Below are positions 2,178 through 8,604 of a stretch of DNA of 8,604 nucleotides, piece after piece. The notes beneath the pieces are model-generated. The model was not told the DNA's origin and ran no database searches. It saw only the letters and a list, made by a program, of their open reading frames with translations. Location of the stretch: the NCBI GenBank assembly GCA_016783285.1, contig JADHWW010000082.1, forward strand, positions 1 through 8,604. Reading direction: 5' to 3'. The DNA is from Anaerolineae bacterium (GTDB lineage: Bacteria; Chloroflexota; Anaerolineae; B4-G1). Position 1 is the stretch's first letter; each line of letters opens with the position of its first letter. A program made the translations under genes and the position numbers.

Positions 2178-2389
2178 GTGAGATTATCACCTCCAACTTC
2201 CCATCCTACAGAATTCAAAATGCACATTCCAACGTAGAGCCGCCAGACGGCCACCCGGACGGACAAGTTCCGGTTTCCTAGAGGCCCCCCGCCCAGAGCC
2301 CCCAGAGGGCCAGTGGCAACAGTAGCGACCAAGAGGCCCTGAAGGTCATTCCTTCGGGGTCCCTTTTTTGTTTCTGGCCTTTCGACGAA
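2178..2389 (+). promoter_or_regulatory. Structured tad-operon leader with candidate attenuator
   Basis: Between the promoter and the first gene, complementary segments occur that cannot all pair at once. GGCCC (2283-2287) can pair with GGGCC (2307-2311). AGGGCC (2306-2311) can instead pair with GGCCCT (2335-2340), supported by an inner TGG/CCA pairing (2314-2316 with 2329-2331). GGCCCT is also the left base of the terminator stem (2335-2345). This is the logic of an anti-anti-terminator, anti-terminator and terminator. Smaller hairpins lie at 2239-2251 (GCCG/CGGC) and 2255-2273 (CCGGA/TCCGG). No known riboswitch class was recognised. A constitutive terminator or a small RNA is an alternative. 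Confidence 0.5.
2335..2369 (+). terminator. Intrinsic terminator inside the tad-operon leader
   Basis: Positions 2337-2345 (CCCTGAAGG) pair with 2351-2359 (CCTTCGGGG) around the 5-nt loop TCATT. Two further G-C pairs (2335-2336 with 2361-2362) extend the stem past one bulged T. A C and six T (2364-2369) follow. Stem, loop and T-run together are a textbook Rho-independent terminator. It sits 20 bp before the first pilus-operon gene and far from any upstream stop codon, so it more likely acts on the leader transcript than on the recombinase mRNA. Confidence 0.75.
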
Positions 2390-2731: not shown

Positions 2732-4006
2732 GTGAAACTTCGCGTCTGGAAATCGTTGACTTTCTTCATCGGGCTGATCCTCTTCATCGCCGCCTTCGGT
2801 GTGATCCTGGTGGCGGGCAGCATCTTCAACCCGCCGCCCTACCGCATCATCATCGCACTGGAGGAGATCCCGCCCTACACGGTCATCGCCCGTGACATGT
2901 TCGCCGTGGACGAGCAGACCATGCATCAGAGAGTCGCCTCGCGGCTGGTACACGAGACGGAGATAGACAGTTATCTGGGCGGCATGACAGTGGAGACCGT
3001 CCACGCCGGCGAACCGTTGCGACGCAATGCCGTGGTGACGGCCGACAACCCGGCCGCCGTGCACCGCCTCTCCCTGGCACTCACCGACCCCGACGTGGTG
3101 GCGGCTGTAGTTCCCGTCAACTCCAAAATCATCCCCGACAACGTGACGGCGGGCGACTACGTCAACGTCACCGTGGGCATCGAGGGCAACGTCAGTCAGT
3201 TGACAGCGACGTGGGGCGAGGCGGCGGGACCCACTACGTGGGGTGCGTCTCCGGCAGGTGCCCTGACCCCAGTTCCATTCACCTCCACCCTTCCGCTTGC
3301 GTCCGGTCACTCGACAGGCTCGGGGCAGGCTGGCCCACTGCCATTGAGCGAGGAGGTGCCGGAGGTAGCGCCGCCGCTGGACAAGATCGTCCTGCCCCAG
3401 GTGCAGGTGATCAACGTATCGCGGGAAAAGGTGCCCAATCCTAATTATGGCATGACATTCGGCCAGGAAGGGGCACAGGAGCCTCCCTTCCTGGAAGGGG
3501 ACATCGAATCCATCACTATCCTGGTGCCGAAAGCGGCCGAGGAGCTGCTCTACTTCGCCGTGGACAACGGGACGTTGCACGTCTCGATCGTGCCTCACGC
3601 GGCTGTGCTCGCGGGAGCCTCGCCGAGCACAGGCGTGTTGTGGGAAGACATCGTGCGCTTCTTCCAGGAGGAGCGGCTGAGGGCGCTGGGGGTGATCACC
3701 ACCACTGTGCCTGCGCCGGCCTCGACGTCGCCGGTCACCGCCAGCGGGGCGCTGACTATGCCGGTGGCCCCGCCACCTCTTCCAACTCCCACACCGACAG
3801 AAGCGGCTGCCATACCACCCACATCGCCGCTTCCCGGCCAAGGTGAGCCCCCAGGCGGCGGGGGTTCTGAGAGCGAGGGATCGCTGCTCCCGTCTACGCT
3901 GGCAGGCAGCCTCCCAGGCTACCTGGTGCCCCTGTGCATCGGCGGGGGCCTGGTGATCGGACTGGGGGCGGTGGGCTTTGCGCTGATGAGACGGCGAAAG
4001 GGATAG
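2732..4006 (+). CDS. cpaB: Flp pilus assembly protein CpaB/RcpC with C-terminal membrane anchor
   Basis: A 424-residue envelope component of the Tad/Flp pilus. The GTG start at 2732 follows AAGGAGG (2719-2725) at good spacing. An N-terminal membrane helix (about 10-30) is followed by a SAF-type domain (about 38-105) and the RcpC region: AAVVPVN and AGDYVNV (125-146), LPQVQVINV (221-229) and ITILVPKAAEELLYFAVDNG (261-280), all matching the usual CpaB order. Residues 151-215 are an expanded low-complexity linker holding a copy of the 24-bp repeat (peptide GHSTGSGQAG). A Pro/Thr/Ser-rich region (about 325-395) leads to a second membrane helix (about 396-418) ending in RRRKG. Typical CpaB proteins have only the N-terminal helix. 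The second anchor fits a single-membrane envelope, because no secretin gene follows. The family call is firm; topology is inferred. Confidence 0.88.
   Translation: MKLRVWKSLTFFIGLILFIAAFGVILVAGSIFNPPPYRIIIALEEIPPYTVIARDMFAVDEQTMHQRVASRLVHETEIDSYLGGMTVETVHAGEPLRRNAVVTADNPAAVHRLSLALTDPDVVAAVVPVNSKIIPDNVTAGDYVNVTVGIEGNVSQLTATWGEAAGPTTWGASPAGALTPVPFTSTLPLASGHSTGSGQAGPLPLSEEVPEVAPPLDKIVLPQVQVINVSREKVPNPNYGMTFGQEGAQEPPFLEGDIESITILVPKAAEELLYFAVDNGTLHVSIVPHAAVLAGASPSTGVLWEDIVRFFQEERLRALGVITTTVPAPASTSPVTASGALTMPVAPPPLPTPTPTEAAAIPPTSPLPGQGEPPGGGGSESEGSLLPSTLAGSLPGYLVPLCIGGGLVIGLGAVGFALMRRRKG
3308..3331 (+). repeat. 24-bp palindromic element, in frame in cpaB linker
   Basis: A diverged copy: left half CACTCGACAGG, right half CTCGGGGCAGG. 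It is translated as GHSTGSGQAG inside the expanded linker between the two RcpC strands. One CTCAGG position has become CTCGGG, so it is probably older than the copies in cpaE and tadA. Confidence 0.6.
3463..3494. repeat. Perfect 10-bp inverted repeat inside cpaB
   Basis: CCAGGAAGGG (3463-3472) and CCCTTCCTGG (3485-3494) pair perfectly around a 12-nt loop. They lie within the codons for about residues 244-255. In mRNA this would be a stable hairpin. It is not related in sequence to the 24-bp element. It may be chance in GC-rich coding sequence or an intra-operon RNA structure. Confidence 0.45.
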
Positions 4007-4011
4007 GAGCG

Positions 4012-5433
4012 ATGAAGGCCAGGCAAGAACTGACTACACCCAGCGGAGAGGAAGCACGCCCCCTTCGGCAGGCTCAGGGCAGGCACCTGCGCGTTCTTCT
4101 CGCCATCGACCTGGAAGCAGTTTCGGATATGCAACTCCTGATGGGAGAGCTGCAGGCCGGGAACCCCTACCACCTGGAGATCGCCGGCATCGCCCGCGAA
4201 GGGACGGTGGTCTACCAGGACGCGGTGGAGAAGGGGGCCGACGTCGTCCTGCTCTCCCCGACCATCCCCGGATACAGCCCTGAGGTCGTGCAGCGTCTCT
4301 ACCACTACGAAGAGCACCCCATCCTCACCGTCGCACTGGTGCCGACGGTGGGTGACTGGGCGGTGACGATGGAAAAGGCGGGGGCGATGGGTCACCTGAC
4401 CACCCCCCTGTCGCCCGAGAGCATCTCCCGGTTGGCGGCGATGCTGCCACCGGCGGTACGGGACGCCTACGGCTACCGCACTTCCGACAAGTACGTTCCC
4501 CGCCTCTCACCGGAGGTGGCACAGATCGTGGATCGAGGCGGCTGGCGGCGGCAGACGGTGGCCTTCTGGGCCCCCTCAGGGGGCGTGGGCAAGACGACGT
4601 TATCGGTCAACGTGGCAGCGGCGCTGGGCGTGATCGCCAACAAGCGTACCCTGCTCATCGACACCGACATGAACAAGGGAGACGCCCACCTGCTGCTGGA
4701 CCTGGAGGGGGAGGAGAAGAACGTCTACGCGCTGGCCAAGCAACTGGTCACCTTCGGAAACGTGACACCGTTGGACGTGAAACGATTCCTGACCCCGTAC
4801 AGGCGGAGCAACCTGTCGGTCCTGATCGGCATCCCTCAGACGTGGATGGCCTCCGACGCCAGCCTGGCGGGAGAGCAAGGTATGCGCTTGATCAAGAATC
4901 TGCTGGAGTTGACCGAACCGGCCTACGACTTCATCGTGTTTGATCTGGGCCAGACCTACAACCACCCCGTGCACTTGACGGTGCTGCAACAGGCCGATCT
5001 CATATTCCTGGTGGTCAACTCGACGGTGACCTCGCTCTACGCCGGGCACAAGGCACTGGGAGCGCTGCGGCAGGCGGGGCTGCTGGAGGGAGACAGACTG
5101 CGGGTGGTGGTGAACAAGTACCATCCGCGCCATGGAATCTCACGGCGGGAGGTGCAGGATGCGTTGGAGGGGTTGCCCACTTTCGCCGAGATCGCCGCCG
5201 GCGAGAACCAGGAAGTGACCATCGCGCTCAACGACGGCGAGCCGGTGGTGTTGGCCGACGGCAAGGCCCAGGTAGCGCAGGACATACTGCAACTGAGCGC
5301 GGCACTCTACCCGCCGCTGGCGGACATCCGTGAGCTGCAAGCGGGCAAGAAAAGCGGATTCTTGGAACGGTTCCTTCGGCTACGCCCTTCGGCAGGCTCA
5401 GGGCATCGCTCAGGACAAGCCTTCGGAGGATAG
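4012..5433 (+). CDS. cpaE: CpaE/TadZ-type pilus localisation ATPase
   Basis: A 473-residue MinD/ParA-like protein of the Tad system, which marks the assembly site at the cell pole or membrane. ATG 4012 is preceded by AGGAG (4005-4009), overlapping the cpaB stop. A GTG at 3934 in the same frame lies deep inside cpaB and has no ribosome site. An atypical receiver-like domain (about 25-150) precedes the ATPase domain (about 180-430). The P-loop is APSGGVGKTT (187-196): Ser replaces the signature lysine of KGGVGKTT, while the second Lys (194) is kept. LLIDTDMNKGD (214-224) and FIVFDLGQTYN (308-317) match the Asp-bearing ParA motifs, and VVVNKY (366-370) fits the family's nucleotide-contact Asn. 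Repeat-derived peptides occur at both ends (about 16-24 and 456-473), outside the folded domains. Gene overlaps place it firmly in the operon. Confidence 0.88.
   Translation: MKARQELTTPSGEEARPLRQAQGRHLRVLLAIDLEAVSDMQLLMGELQAGNPYHLEIAGIAREGTVVYQDAVEKGADVVLLSPTIPGYSPEVVQRLYHYEEHPILTVALVPTVGDWAVTMEKAGAMGHLTTPLSPESISRLAAMLPPAVRDAYGYRTSDKYVPRLSPEVAQIVDRGGWRRQTVAFWAPSGGVGKTTLSVNVAAALGVIANKRTLLIDTDMNKGDAHLLLDLEGEEKNVYALAKQLVTFGNVTPLDVKRFLTPYRRSNLSVLIGIPQTWMASDASLAGEQGMRLIKNLLELTEPAYDFIVFDLGQTYNHPVHLTVLQQADLIFLVVNSTVTSLYAGHKALGALRQAGLLEGDRLRVVVNKYHPRHGISRREVQDALEGLPTFAEIAAGENQEVTIALNDGEPVVLADGKAQVAQDILQLSAALYPPLADIRELQAGKKSGFLERFLRLRPSAGSGHRSGQAFGG
4061..4084 (+). repeat. 24-bp palindromic element, in frame at cpaE 5' end
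   Basis: Left half CCCTTCGGCAGG (4061-4072) and right half CTCAGGGCAGGC (4073-4084), with CCCT/AGGG complementary at the ends. Translated as PLRQAQGR, just before the first strand of the receiver-like domain. At 24 bp it adds eight codons without shifting the frame. Confidence 0.75.
5373..5429 (+). repeat. Nested pair of 24-bp elements plus fragment at cpaE 3' end
   Basis: Four consecutive 12-bp half-units read as left-left-right-right: CCTTCGGCTACG (5373-5384), CCCTTCGGCAGG (5385-5396), CTCAGGGCATCG (5397-5408), CTCAGGACAAGC (5409-5420). The inner two form one element and the outer two another, split at its centre. A further fragment (5420-5429) ends in GGAGG, which is the likely ribosome site of tadA. 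The region encodes the last residues of CpaE (PSAGSGHRSGQAFGG). Confidence 0.7.
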
Positions 5434-5439
5434 AGAACG

Positions 5440-6996
5440 ATGGCACAACGGATGCTGGGACAGAGTGGTGAGGTTGACCTGGTGGGCCAGATGGTGCACC
5501 AGGCCGCGATGAGGATGGCGACCGAGACGGGACATTCTCCCTTCAAGGTGGTGCTGGAGGCGGTGCGCGAGCGTGTGACCACGCTCCTGACGCCGGCGCA
5601 ACTGGAGAATCCGGGGCCGGCCGAGCGGAATGCGCTGCGACAGGCCGTATCCGAGGAGATGGCCCGCTACAACGAGGCCGCACCGGTATACGGCCAGGCC
5701 CCGCTGGAAGAGCCGGTGGACGTGGTAACAGAACGGGTGCTGGACGAGATCCTGGGGCTGGGGCCACTGGAAGCGCTCCTCTCGGCCGACGACGTGGAGG
5801 ATATCTACATCCTGGGGCCGCACGAGGTCACGGTTATCACGGCGGACGGGCAGAGGCAGCCGGTCAGCCTGGATTTCGGAGACCAGGAACGGCTGATGAA
5901 CCTGGCGCGGCGGGCACTGGCACAGGACGGCAAGCGGGTGGACTTCGCCCATCCTTTCGCCGACGCCCGGCTGCGGGATGGCTCCCGCTTTCACATCAGT
6001 ATCTATCCCTGTGCCGACCCGTGGCCGCAGATCGTCATCCGCCGCCACAGGCAACTCTTCGCCGCCGGCGAGGACCGATTGGCCCGGCTGATCGGGCTGG
6101 GCACGCTCACGCCGCAGGCGGCGTTGCTGCTGAGGACGGCGGTCAGGGCCAGGGTTCCCATCCTGGTTACCGGGGCGACGGCGGCGGGCAAGACGACGAT
6201 CATCAACGCGCTGGCGGGAGAACTGGACCCGCTGGATGCAGTGGTGTGCATCGAGGACACGCGGGAGTTGGATTTCCCCGGCCGGAACGTCAGTTACCTG
6301 GTCACCCGTCCCCCCTCACCCGAGGGAGAAGGGGCCCAGAGCATGCAGATATCGCAGCGCTACCTGGCGCAACAAGCGTTGCGGAAGCGGCCCGATTGGA
6401 TCGTACTGGGCGAGGCGCGCGGCGCGGAGGCGTGGGACTTTGCCCAGGCGGGCAACACAGGACACGCCATCATGGGCAGCGTGCACGCCAACAGCGCCCG
6501 GGATGCAGTAGAACGCTACCGGGACCTGTGCCTGGAGGCCGGCGAGAACCTGCGGGAGAACGTCGTGCTGCGGGGCGTGGTACGTGCCTTCCGGCTGGTG
6601 GTCTACGTCGAGATGGACGCCCGGCTGAGGCGACGGTTGGTCAAGCACATCACCGAGGTAACGGGCAACGTCACGGAACAGAACGTCCCGGTGCTGCAAG
6701 ATCTCTTTTCCTGGGAGGACCGTCCTTCGGCAGGCCCTTCGACAAGCCCTTCGACAAGCTCAGGGCAGGGCTCAGGGCAGGGCTCACCGCCACGCCTGCC
6801 ACGAGAGTACTCTCGCAGTGGAGTACTCGCGGTGGCAGGGCAAGGCTCAGGAGATCCTGGGTTGCATTGTACAGGCGCACGGCCGTACCCACTGCTGGGA
6901 AAACTGCTGGAGAGAGCCGGTTGCAGCTACGAGCAGGTGATACGCGGGGCAGGCATCCCCGCAGACTGGTTGCAGGAGGCACAGAGATGGGCATAG
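5440..6996 (+). CDS. tadA: Tad pilus assembly ATPase TadA/CpaF
   Basis: A 518-residue secretion ATPase that should drive Flp pilus polymerisation at the inner face of the membrane as a hexamer. ATG 5440 lies 6 bp after the cpaE stop, with GGAGG at 5425-5429. The N-terminal helical domain (about 1-115) and PAS-like N2 domain (about 115-205) precede the RecA-like core. Motifs: Walker A GATAAGKTT (245-253; usually GGTGSGKTT), Asp box CIEDTRELDF (270-279), TRPPSPEGEG (289-298), Walker B with catalytic Glu in RPDWIVLGEARGAEA (317-331; Glu325), and His box NTGHAIMGSVHANSARD (339-355). After LQDLFSWED (419-427) the family normally runs almost directly to the TGIRP motif; here CTGARP (477-482) follows only after about 48 extra residues encoded by nested palindromes and a hairpin. 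The ATPase core appears intact, so the enzyme is probably active. Confidence 0.93.
   Translation: MAQRMLGQSGEVDLVGQMVHQAAMRMATETGHSPFKVVLEAVRERVTTLLTPAQLENPGPAERNALRQAVSEEMARYNEAAPVYGQAPLEEPVDVVTERVLDEILGLGPLEALLSADDVEDIYILGPHEVTVITADGQRQPVSLDFGDQERLMNLARRALAQDGKRVDFAHPFADARLRDGSRFHISIYPCADPWPQIVIRRHRQLFAAGEDRLARLIGLGTLTPQAALLLRTAVRARVPILVTGATAAGKTTIINALAGELDPLDAVVCIEDTRELDFPGRNVSYLVTRPPSPEGEGAQSMQISQRYLAQQALRKRPDWIVLGEARGAEAWDFAQAGNTGHAIMGSVHANSARDAVERYRDLCLEAGENLRENVVLRGVVRAFRLVVYVEMDARLRRRLVKHITEVTGNVTEQNVPVLQDLFSWEDRPSAGPSTSPSTSSGQGSGQGSPPRLPREYSRSGVLAVAGQGSGDPGLHCTGARPYPLLGKLLERAGCSYEQVIRGAGIPADWLQEAQRWA
6724..6786 (+). repeat. Triple-nested 24-bp palindromic elements in tadA
   Basis: Three left halves are followed by three right halves: CCTTCGGCAGG (6724-6734), CCCTTCGACAAG (6735-6746), CCCTTCGACAAG (6747-6758), then CTCAGGGCAGGG (6759-6770), CTCAGGGCAGGG (6771-6782) and a degraded CTCA (6783-6786). 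This is what results if an element inserts at the centre of a resident copy, twice. The units are 12 bp, so the frame is kept; the product is a Ser/Gly-rich tract (about 429-449). Confidence 0.75.
6788..6839. repeat. Large GAGTACTC-containing hairpin inside tadA
   Basis: CCTGCCAC then GAGTACTC on the left (6795-6812) mirrors GAGTACTC then GTGGCAGG on the right (6821-6839), with small mismatches between. The left side also contains a perfect 14-bp palindrome, CGAGAGTACTCTCG (6802-6815). The hairpin directly follows the nested elements and encodes part of the same extra segment (about 450-467). It appears to be a second, distinct palindrome family. Confidence 0.65.
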
Positions 6997-8015
6997 TGGA
7001 TCAATTGTTCTATGGGCCCAACGTGGCATTGGCCTTGCTGGGCGGTGCGGGGGTGCTGGCGATGTTCCTGGCCCTCTTTGCCTCGGCCCCGGCAGCGGAG
7101 GTGAGGCGCAAGGTGACCGGCGAGGAGAGGCGCAGAACGACGTTGCAGCAGATGATCGACCAAGCCAACCTGCCCATCACCGCCGACGAGTTCCTCAAGA
7201 CCGGTACGATGCTGGCCGTGGCGACGGCGATCCTGGGCTACGTCTTGCTGCGCACCGTCACTGGAGCTGTGTTGGGTGGCTTGATCGGCCCATTGGCCTA
7301 TTGGGGTTACCTGGGCGGACGGCGTGACAAGACGCGCCGTGCCTACCAGGAGGCCCTGGCGCGTGTAGCCACGATCGTGCGCGACGTCATCGGGCGTGGC
7401 GGGAGCCTGAAGGAAGCCGTCGCTGCCGTGGCAAAGCGCGGGCCGGTGGTGACGCAAGTGGATTTCGAAGGGGCAAACACGGCGCTGGCCTCAGGTCAAT
7501 CGCTGGAAAAGGGACTGGAGCCCCTGGGAGAGCGACGGCGCGACCCTATCCTGACCATGTTGGTGGAGATCCTGCTGGTGCACGTGAAACACGGCGGGCG
7601 GGTCAAGACGGTGTTGGACCGCCTGGCGGCAGCGGCGCGCCGGCGGGCGAACGTGCGCCGGCGCATCCTGGCCGAGCAGGCCCAACTGCGGTGGGAAGCG
7701 CGTATCGTCAGCATCGCTCCTTTCGTCATGCTGGTCATCTTTCGTCTCTCGGCCCCCGGGCTGGTCACGCCCTTCTACGCGACCACCGCGGGCGAGATCA
7801 CCGTCCTGGTGGCCGGCCTGATCAGCATCGTGTCTTACATCCTGGTCATGCGGGTGGGCAACCGGCCGCTGCAGATCGTGGAGTCGGCCTTCGTCGCATC
7901 GGAGTCTGGCACAGCCGATGGTCAATCAGGGTCTTCGTCGCGTCCCCCCGCAGGCTCAGGTCCAGCGGATGGAAGGGCTGGCCCTGAGCAGAGCCGAAGG
8001 GGAGGGGTAGCATGA
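6987..8015 (+). CDS. tadB: Tad pilus inner-membrane platform protein TadB
   Basis: A 342-residue type II secretion F-domain protein, one of the two polytopic platform proteins on which TadA acts. ATG 6987 is preceded by AGGAGG (6974-6979) and overlaps the tadA 3' end by 10 bp, which suggests translational coupling. Membrane segments lie near 11-34, 72-89, 91-109, 242-263 and 268-290. The cytoplasmic F domain spans about 115-240 and includes the conserved RGGSLKEAVAAVA and LASGQSLEKGLEPL stretches, then HVKHGGRVKTVLDRLAAAARRR. After the last membrane segment an unusual hydrophilic tail (about 300-342) is encoded largely by diverged palindromic-element sequence, ending in GPEQSRRGGVA. The stop overlaps the tadC start as ATGA. 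The assignment as TadB rather than TadC follows from order: it is the first F-domain gene after tadA. Confidence 0.9.
   Translation: MGIVDQLFYGPNVALALLGGAGVLAMFLALFASAPAAEVRRKVTGEERRRTTLQQMIDQANLPITADEFLKTGTMLAVATAILGYVLLRTVTGAVLGGLIGPLAYWGYLGGRRDKTRRAYQEALARVATIVRDVIGRGGSLKEAVAAVAKRGPVVTQVDFEGANTALASGQSLEKGLEPLGERRRDPILTMLVEILLVHVKHGGRVKTVLDRLAAAARRRANVRRRILAEQAQLRWEARIVSIAPFVMLVIFRLSAPGLVTPFYATTAGEITVLVAGLISIVSYILVMRVGNRPLQIVESAFVASESGTADGQSGSSSRPPAGSGPADGRAGPEQSRRGGVA
7977..8000 (-). repeat. 24-bp palindromic element (reverse orientation) at tadB 3' end
   Basis: On the minus strand the left half CCTTCGGCTCTG (8000-7989) is followed by CTCAGGGCCAGC (7988-7977). It encodes the last residues of TadB and abuts GGAGGGG (8001-8007), the ribosome site of tadC. 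A second, poorer copy in forward orientation lies just upstream (CAGGCTCAGG core, 7951-7960). Confidence 0.65.
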
Positions 8016-8604
8016 ATGGCATCAATCTATTCGCTGCATTGCTGGGATCGGTGGGCATCGTGCTGGTCTTCAGTGTCGTCGCCGGGACTGCGGAGACGGT
8101 CCTGGCGAGACTGGGCGGCAAGGCAGCCCAACGGGTGGCCCGGTGGAAGGAAGGGGAAGCGGACCCATACTGCCTCTCGATGCTGAACGACCGGCCCTTC
8201 CTCGACCGCTTGCTGGGGCCGCTGTCCTCCAACGTGGCTCGCTGGTTGGGAACGACGGCAGGGACGGCGGAACGGGACGCCAATCTGCTCCTGCAGGCCG
8301 GTTACCCGCGCCCCTTCAACACCTTGGGTGATTTCTACGGCTGGAAAGTGATCACTGCCTTCACGTTCTTCCTGCTGACGCTCTTGGCGGCTGCATTGAC
8401 CGGCGCTACCTTCTTCGTCTTCGCCGCCTTCATACTGGGGGTGTTCGGTCTCTACCTGCCTGACCTGAGCTTGCGGCAGGCGGCCCGCCGGCGACAGGAA
8501 GCATTCCGTACCGAGATGGCCTTCACGTTGGACCGGCTGGCGATGATGCTGGGGGCGGGAGATGGGGCAGAGCAAGCGATACGGCGCGTGGCCGGGCGAG
8601 GTGG
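8012..8604 (+). CDS. tadC: Tad pilus inner-membrane platform protein TadC (partial, 3' end beyond window)
   Basis: The first 197 residues of the second F-domain platform protein. ATG 8012 overlaps the tadB stop by 4 bp (ATGA), with GGAGGGG at 8001-8007. An N-terminal membrane helix (about 5-25) is followed by a soluble stretch. RDANLLLQAGYPRPFN (88-103) matches the usual 'L..AG' lead-in, then come two adjacent membrane helices (about 110-131 and 132-149). LPDLSLRQAARRRQEAFRTE (149-168) and FTLDRLAMMLGAGDGAEQAIRRVA (171-194) begin the F domain in the form typical of TadC. The right edge cuts the F domain and the last membrane helices. TadB and TadC are thought to form the base with which TadA interacts. 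Confidence 0.9.
   Translation, partial: MNGINLFAALLGSVGIVLVFSVVAGTAETVLARLGGKAAQRVARWKEGEADPYCLSMLNDRPFLDRLLGPLSSNVARWLGTTAGTAERDANLLLQAGYPRPFNTLGDFYGWKVITAFTFFLLTLLAAALTGATFFVFAAFILGVFGLYLPDLSLRQAARRRQEAFRTEMAFTLDRLAMMLGAGDGAEQAIRRVAGRG

Follow-up and report, generated by a model that had tools for sequence, protein, structure and literature searches.

The 8,604-nt stretch of DNA analysed here (the window) carries a Tad pilus operon preceded by a conserved leader that, as sequence comparison supports, is noncoding and ends in an intrinsic terminator. To explain this arrangement we favour a lineage-specific transcription attenuator that would stop transcription by default and respond to some trigger. 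We regard the case for this reading as evenly balanced.

Gene context of the leader

A tyrosine recombinase gene is followed by 490 bp without a recognised gene, and then by a conserved gene for a 108-aa protein (the first gene) and by CpaB-, CpaE-, TadA- and TadB-like genes. An ABC-transporter-like frame, identified by eye, lies on the opposite strand at the left end, and the window contains no tRNA gene. Judging from homologues, the window probably comes from the Chloroflexota, class Anaerolineae.

958-1899, + strand: tyrosine recombinase gene (XerC/XerD-like; NCBIfam match below the curated cut-off)
2390-2716, + strand: first gene, 108 aa, conserved (66 homologues), no assigned function
2732-4006, + strand: CpaB-like gene (TIGR03177, 31.6 bits against a cut-off of 71)
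4012-5433, + strand: CpaE-like gene (AAA_31; homologues called CpaE by their sources)
5440-6996, + strand: TadA-like ATPase gene (T2SSE; best NCBIfam match TIGR03819, below cut-off)
6987-8012, + strand: TadB-like gene (T2SSF)
8012-8604, + strand: next gene, truncated by the window end (TadC by position only; no Pfam match)

The CpaB-like gene has no Pfam match, and its homologue in the genome G001 matches SAF and RcpC. A 21-nt repeat (CCCTTCGRCARGCTCAGGGCA) occurs in three copies within the CpaE- and TadA-like genes (4061-4081, 5385-5405 and 6747-6767), each with one mismatch to the query, where chance would give none; the CpaE of a close relative (P0001) lacks the residues that match this repeat. 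Directly after the recombinase gene, two 11-nt segments (1932-1942 and 2076-2086, 133 nt apart) form an inverted repeat of 91% complementarity, which may be a chance match or a recombinase site.

The first-gene protein matches nothing in Pfam, NCBIfam or PHROGs. It has 66 homologues, 63 of them without an NCBI source, and we therefore take the first gene to be real. Its start has no visible Shine-Dalgarno sequence; each of the next five starts has one. A profile of the protein matched 8 of 396 genomes in one draw, a count that is not independent of those from other draws because the draws overlap strongly. One of the eight, G376, also has the leader, and six of the eight first-gene loci examined have other sequence upstream. 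When relatives were sought by protein, a single-protein scan of genome contigs found none in 34 stretches, and an alignment scan found them in 24 of 80, three of which are titled Chloroflexota.

Several homologues of the first gene have features of their own. Five of them (P0117, P0119, P0123, P0125 and P0126) seem to be chimeras in which unrelated sequence is fused within the conserved part, and are either assembly artefacts or real rearrangements. In three of the eight loci (L050 in G239, L051 in G310 and L053 in G120) a different long hairpin, CTCGRCAGTGAT...ATCACTGYCGAG, precedes the same gene. One pair of this hairpin is changed on both sides between L050 and L051, from G-C to A-U, and the hairpin could represent either another type of leader or a repeat. 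In G376 (locus L048) the first gene has a TAG stop at codon 37, near the contig end.

An intrinsic terminator precedes the first gene

2143-2171, + strand: promoter-like site TTGAAC-17-TACAAT with extended TG (9 of 12 consensus matches)
2178-2369, + strand: leader RNA, from the presumed start to the end of the U run (by sequence; conserved in G376 from about 2222)
2335-2369, + strand: intrinsic terminator, stem 2335-2345:2351-2361 and U run 2364-2369 (hairpin search, folding and shuffles)

The terminator stem has 11 pairs, seven of them G-C, and is followed by CCTTTTTTGTTT; the tail reads six U, one G and three U. With the U run ending at 2369 and the first ATG at 2390, 20 bp separate the terminator from the first gene. 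None of 2,000 dinucleotide shuffles of 2178-2389 reached the score of this terminator, and 178 of them contained any terminator-like site at all. Across the window such sites occur at chance level (5 against 5.3 expected), and 2335-2361 has the longest stem of the five. The first-pass annotation had described a leader of about 200 nt with a terminator 20 bp before the first gene; both are present, the leader being closer to 190 nt.

The terminator lies between the first gene and a promoter-like site that is recognised by consensus match only. What had been called a strong promoter does match the consensus at 9 of 12 positions and has the TG extension, but such a match is weak taken alone, as the whole window holds 2 sites of this quality against 1.1 expected from shuffles. 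A promoter at 2143-2171, with a start near 2178, is a putative assignment. A 9/12 site also lies at 2391-2420, inside the first gene; apart from it, we found no promoter for the Tad operon downstream of the terminator in the window. The promoter region differs between the window and G376, where a TTGATA-17-TATACT site precedes an 81-aa frame whose end is the beginning of the element. In G376 this site (L068, 511-567, minus strand) leads straight into a strong terminator-like hairpin that stands before the 81-aa frame.

The leader is conserved but does not encode a common protein

2255-2273, + strand: small hairpin CCGGA/TCCGG (folding and alignment; loop shorter in G376)
2324-2351, + strand: core of 28 nt that includes the left arm of the terminator, identical in the window, G376 and G277 (sequence comparison)

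G376 carries the leader with the same gene downstream. The leader alignment of the window with G376 shows 109 identities among 118 aligned bases and contains 10 gap columns; similarity is no longer clear upstream of about 2222. Conservation is lower in the coding DNA that follows, whose first 123 bases agree at 94 positions, divided among first, second and third codon positions as 30/41, 39/41 and 25/41. Conservation in the roughly 110 nt preceding the hairpin matches that of the hairpin. This conserved leader is not one shared reading frame, because its indels are 7, 1 and 1 nt long; a common coding frame was excluded by these frame-breaking indels together with the identical third positions. 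Nor is the frame of a leader peptide conserved: the ATG at 2220 is ACG in G376, and the frame from the GTG at 2313 differs between the window and G376.

The 28-nt core was found, within 3 mismatches, in 2 of the 48 genomes in the order of G376, and its reversed control in none. The terminator's left arm is identical in all three copies. The right arms differ (CCTTCGGGGTC in the window, TTCAGGGCCTC in G376 and TTCAGGGTCTC in G277), yet each is still complementary to the left arm: that of the window pairs in a shifted register with the common left arm, and that of G376 is changed relative to the window with full pairing retained. At the level of sequence, it is this differing yet pairing right arm that supports the terminator. 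The U run is strong in the window but interrupted in G376, and G277 has the stem without it. The terminator, the noncoding conservation and the unchanged left arm that faces different right arms are thus seen in the sequences themselves.

Two further relatives, P0128 and P0065, are known through their proteins only. P0128, for which back-translation fixes some of the letters, is the product of an 80-aa frame antisense to the leader and is identical to the window at 44 of 55 residues without a gap (30 of 35 over 2228-2332 and 14 of 20 over 2168-2227). Its stop coincides with the promoter-like site and is compatible with the -10 element. In P0065, as in G376, the hairpin is read through in frame with the first gene. 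P0128 implies RTA at the position of the window's first ATG (2390-2392); given this start and the codon-37 stop of G376, the P0128 and G376 copies may be decayed.

A search of 298 genomes with an RNA model (R1) built from the window and G376 matched three, namely G376, G277 (E 1.2e-11) and G043 (E 0.0025). The last was dropped for its patchy alignment outside an 18-nt piece. In G001, a fairly close relative, the model found no copy. A DNA search of 14 chosen genomes at E up to 10 found weak matches in every one of them and a strong match in G376 only; that in G001 spans 25 bases at E 0.003. The element was not found in viral contigs; plasmids gave either no match or, in 5 records, matches no longer than 25 bases; and phages gave 149 matching records, many of them over the U-rich end of the hairpin and none covering 80% of the query.

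In G277, roughly the last 70 nt of the element precede an IclR/Rrf2-like regulator gene, which is unrelated to the first gene, and a perfect TTGACA-16-TATAAT site lies between the two. The copy may have decayed or moved. This context weakens the tie of the element to Tad control and is consistent with a mobile origin. A frame of G277 (MATISDQEALKVIQGLF) had no matches in plasmids, Pfam or PHROGs, and we found no paper on it.

Possible alternative pairings of the leader

2239-2243, + strand: 5' strand GCCGC of helix PX, partner of 2313-2317 (folding, P0128 back-translation)
2283-2287, + strand: GGCCC, upstream partner first proposed for 2307-2311 (pair probability at most 0.09)
2306-2311, + strand: AGGGCC, left strand of a possible antiterminator with 2335-2340 (folding; invariant in G376, one mismatch in G277)
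2313-2317, + strand: 3' strand GUGGC of helix PX (folding, P0128 back-translation)

As the first-pass annotation had noted, AGGGCC at 2306-2311 is complementary to GGCCCT at 2335-2340, which lies in the terminator's left arm, and, with five of its bases, to GGCCC at 2283-2287. Its further claim that the three helices are all mutually exclusive does not hold, since 2283-2287:2307-2311 and the terminator can coexist. Complementarity to the left arm is unusual to a slight degree only: when 2178-2334 was shuffled in front of the real terminator, 548 of 2,000 sequences provided a 6-nt partner for this arm, and 85 of 2,000 a second partner too. The leader as a whole folds slightly better than shuffled sequence (z -1.90; 10 of 200 shuffles at least as stable).

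In isolation, the terminator has a predicted stability of -19.5 kcal/mol and the antiterminator one of -13.0 kcal/mol. The growing transcript was represented by equilibrium folds of its prefixes, which are not a kinetic simulation. In these folds the antiterminator of the window has a probability of 0.33-0.69 until the right arm appears, after which the terminator prevails; in G376 the antiterminator stays at or below 0.10. The helix 2283-2287:2307-2311 does not exceed 0.09 in either sequence. An antiterminator that excludes the terminator is possible by sequence and is populated in the window but not in G376, and the shuffles above give the chance of such a partner (548 of 2,000). Folding the leader, one of the checks proposed at the outset, returns the terminator as a stable end state, but leaves the 2283-2287 helix hardly populated and the antiterminator low in G376. 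G277 has one A-C mismatch in the antiterminator and no discernible 5' strand of PX.

When the terminator region is removed, the best folds of the window and of G376 both contain PX (2239-2243:2313-2317). Its pair 2242-2314 is G-U in the window and in G376 and A-U in P0128, a one-sided consistent change. This change is what the proposed covariation check on the leaders of relatives yielded; two-sided changes were found at none of the 35 pairs in the two-sequence consensus fold of the window and G376. No pair of the terminator, the antiterminator, PX or 2283-2287:2307-2311 is certainly broken in P0128, many being left unfixed by back-translation, as are at least three of the six antiterminator pairs. 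A small hairpin at 2239-2242:2248-2251 is broken by P0128 and was set aside.

A candidate attenuator and its alternatives

In the attenuator that we favour, RNA polymerase would initiate near 2178 and transcribe the conserved leader. By default it would stop at the terminator (2335-2369) and release a short RNA, whereas some condition would block the terminator and let the Tad operon be transcribed. The moving part would probably be 2306-2317, which could pair upstream, in PX (2239-2243:2313-2317) together with 2249-2252:2308-2311, or downstream, as the antiterminator 2306-2311:2335-2340 on the left arm of the terminator; a protein, RNA or ligand would favour one of these states. The promoter, the switch, its direction and the factor that favours a state are what we infer.

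A fixed left arm beside a drifting right arm fits a second partner for the left arm, although the same pattern would arise if the shared sequence served some other purpose. Nor is conservation by itself a sign of attenuation, because terminators that precede genes are no more often conserved than terminators that follow them (58% against 66%, in the available part of PMC2965389). The design of a riboswitch or attenuator that had been proposed for this leader retains its basis in a conserved leader with a terminator; the switch itself, riboswitch or other, is a putative part of that design. The accompanying remark that no known RNA class is recognisable agrees with our search, which gave no Rfam match up to E 1. 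It is distinctly unlikely that the leader represents a new class of RNA switch, in which a domain closed by 2239-2243:2313-2317 would sense a ligand or protein and gate the Tad operon in uncultured Chloroflexota.

An unregulated terminator could instead end upstream transcripts, or set a constant low readthrough into the Tad operon, without any switch. It would by itself explain the conservation of the hairpin and agrees with the terminator as the stable end state in folding. In G376 the upstream transcripts would be those of the small gene just before the element, the 81-aa frame, which shows a zinc-finger-like pattern and stops at the start of the element. We nevertheless think this rather unlikely: the 110 nt or so upstream are equally conserved and are not needed by a plain terminator, and the recombinase gene of the window ends 436 bp before the stem. 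The transcription unit, being complete by sequence, could also be a small RNA gene whose stand-alone product of about 190 nt acts elsewhere, with the Tad operon downstream by chance, and the element in G277 does precede another gene that has its own promoter. Yet in the window no Tad promoter was found after the terminator save the 9/12 site at 2391-2420, and P0065, P0128 and G376 retain the same gene or its start beside the element; we consider this reading very unlikely.

Just as improbable is a mobile-element relic or recombination site, in which the palindrome AAGAGGCCCTGAA/TTCAGGGCCTCTT would be a DNA site beside different genes, possibly used by a tyrosine recombinase. Such a gene (XerC/XerD-like) does lie upstream in the window, part of the element occurs in other surroundings in G277, and the available part of PMC2965389 treats conserved terminators before unrelated genes as likely insertion-sequence ends. 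However, within the order of G376 the element occurs once each in G376 and G277 and was found in none of the remaining 46 genomes, the examined contigs of G376 and G277 have no recombinase gene, and the window, whose right arm has a different register, has not retained the palindrome. We give scarcely any credence to translation-coupled control, in which a short frame from 2313 would be translated into the hairpin, the ribosome would keep the terminator open, and pairing of 2306-2317 would hide the start. A start codon is indeed present at 2313 in the window and G376 (GTG) and in G277 (ATG). The frame continues across the hairpin and into the first gene in G376 and P0065; that of the window ends after 9 codons, within the left arm. 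Against this reading, the frame differs between relatives, its Shine-Dalgarno sequence is weak, extension through the hairpin occurs in P0065 only among the 66 homologues of the first protein, and the third codon positions of the core are also identical, which protein coding does not require.

If the attenuator gate is real, transcript readthrough would set surface attachment in an uncultured group. With the element, its relatives and its helices now defined, the attenuator proposal is open to a reporter test.

Comparison with known systems

Among the papers listed by full-text literature searches, judged by title and the start of the abstract, none dealt with RNA-level control of Tad pili, and the available parts of PMC2965389, PMC2864571 and PMC3369936 do not describe this element. 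As in riboswitches with a terminator platform, PX would close an upstream domain and compete with the antiterminator; the element differs from them in lacking an Rfam match up to E 1 and in having too few relatives for a structure. Like ANTAR/EutV-type antiterminators (PMC3369936), it has a candidate antiterminator stem, which shares bases with the terminator's left arm. ANTAR leaders themselves are built from a pair of stem-loops, with A1 and G4 located in their loops, as given in the available part of that paper. The premature-terminator attenuators of Naville and Gautheret (2010, PMC2965389) were subjected to a synteny test, for which the relatives of the present element are too few, and the available part of that study mentions neither a pilus gene nor Chloroflexi. 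The element resembles these attenuators in having a terminator-bearing leader directly before a gene and a possible alternative pairing for the left arm of the terminator.
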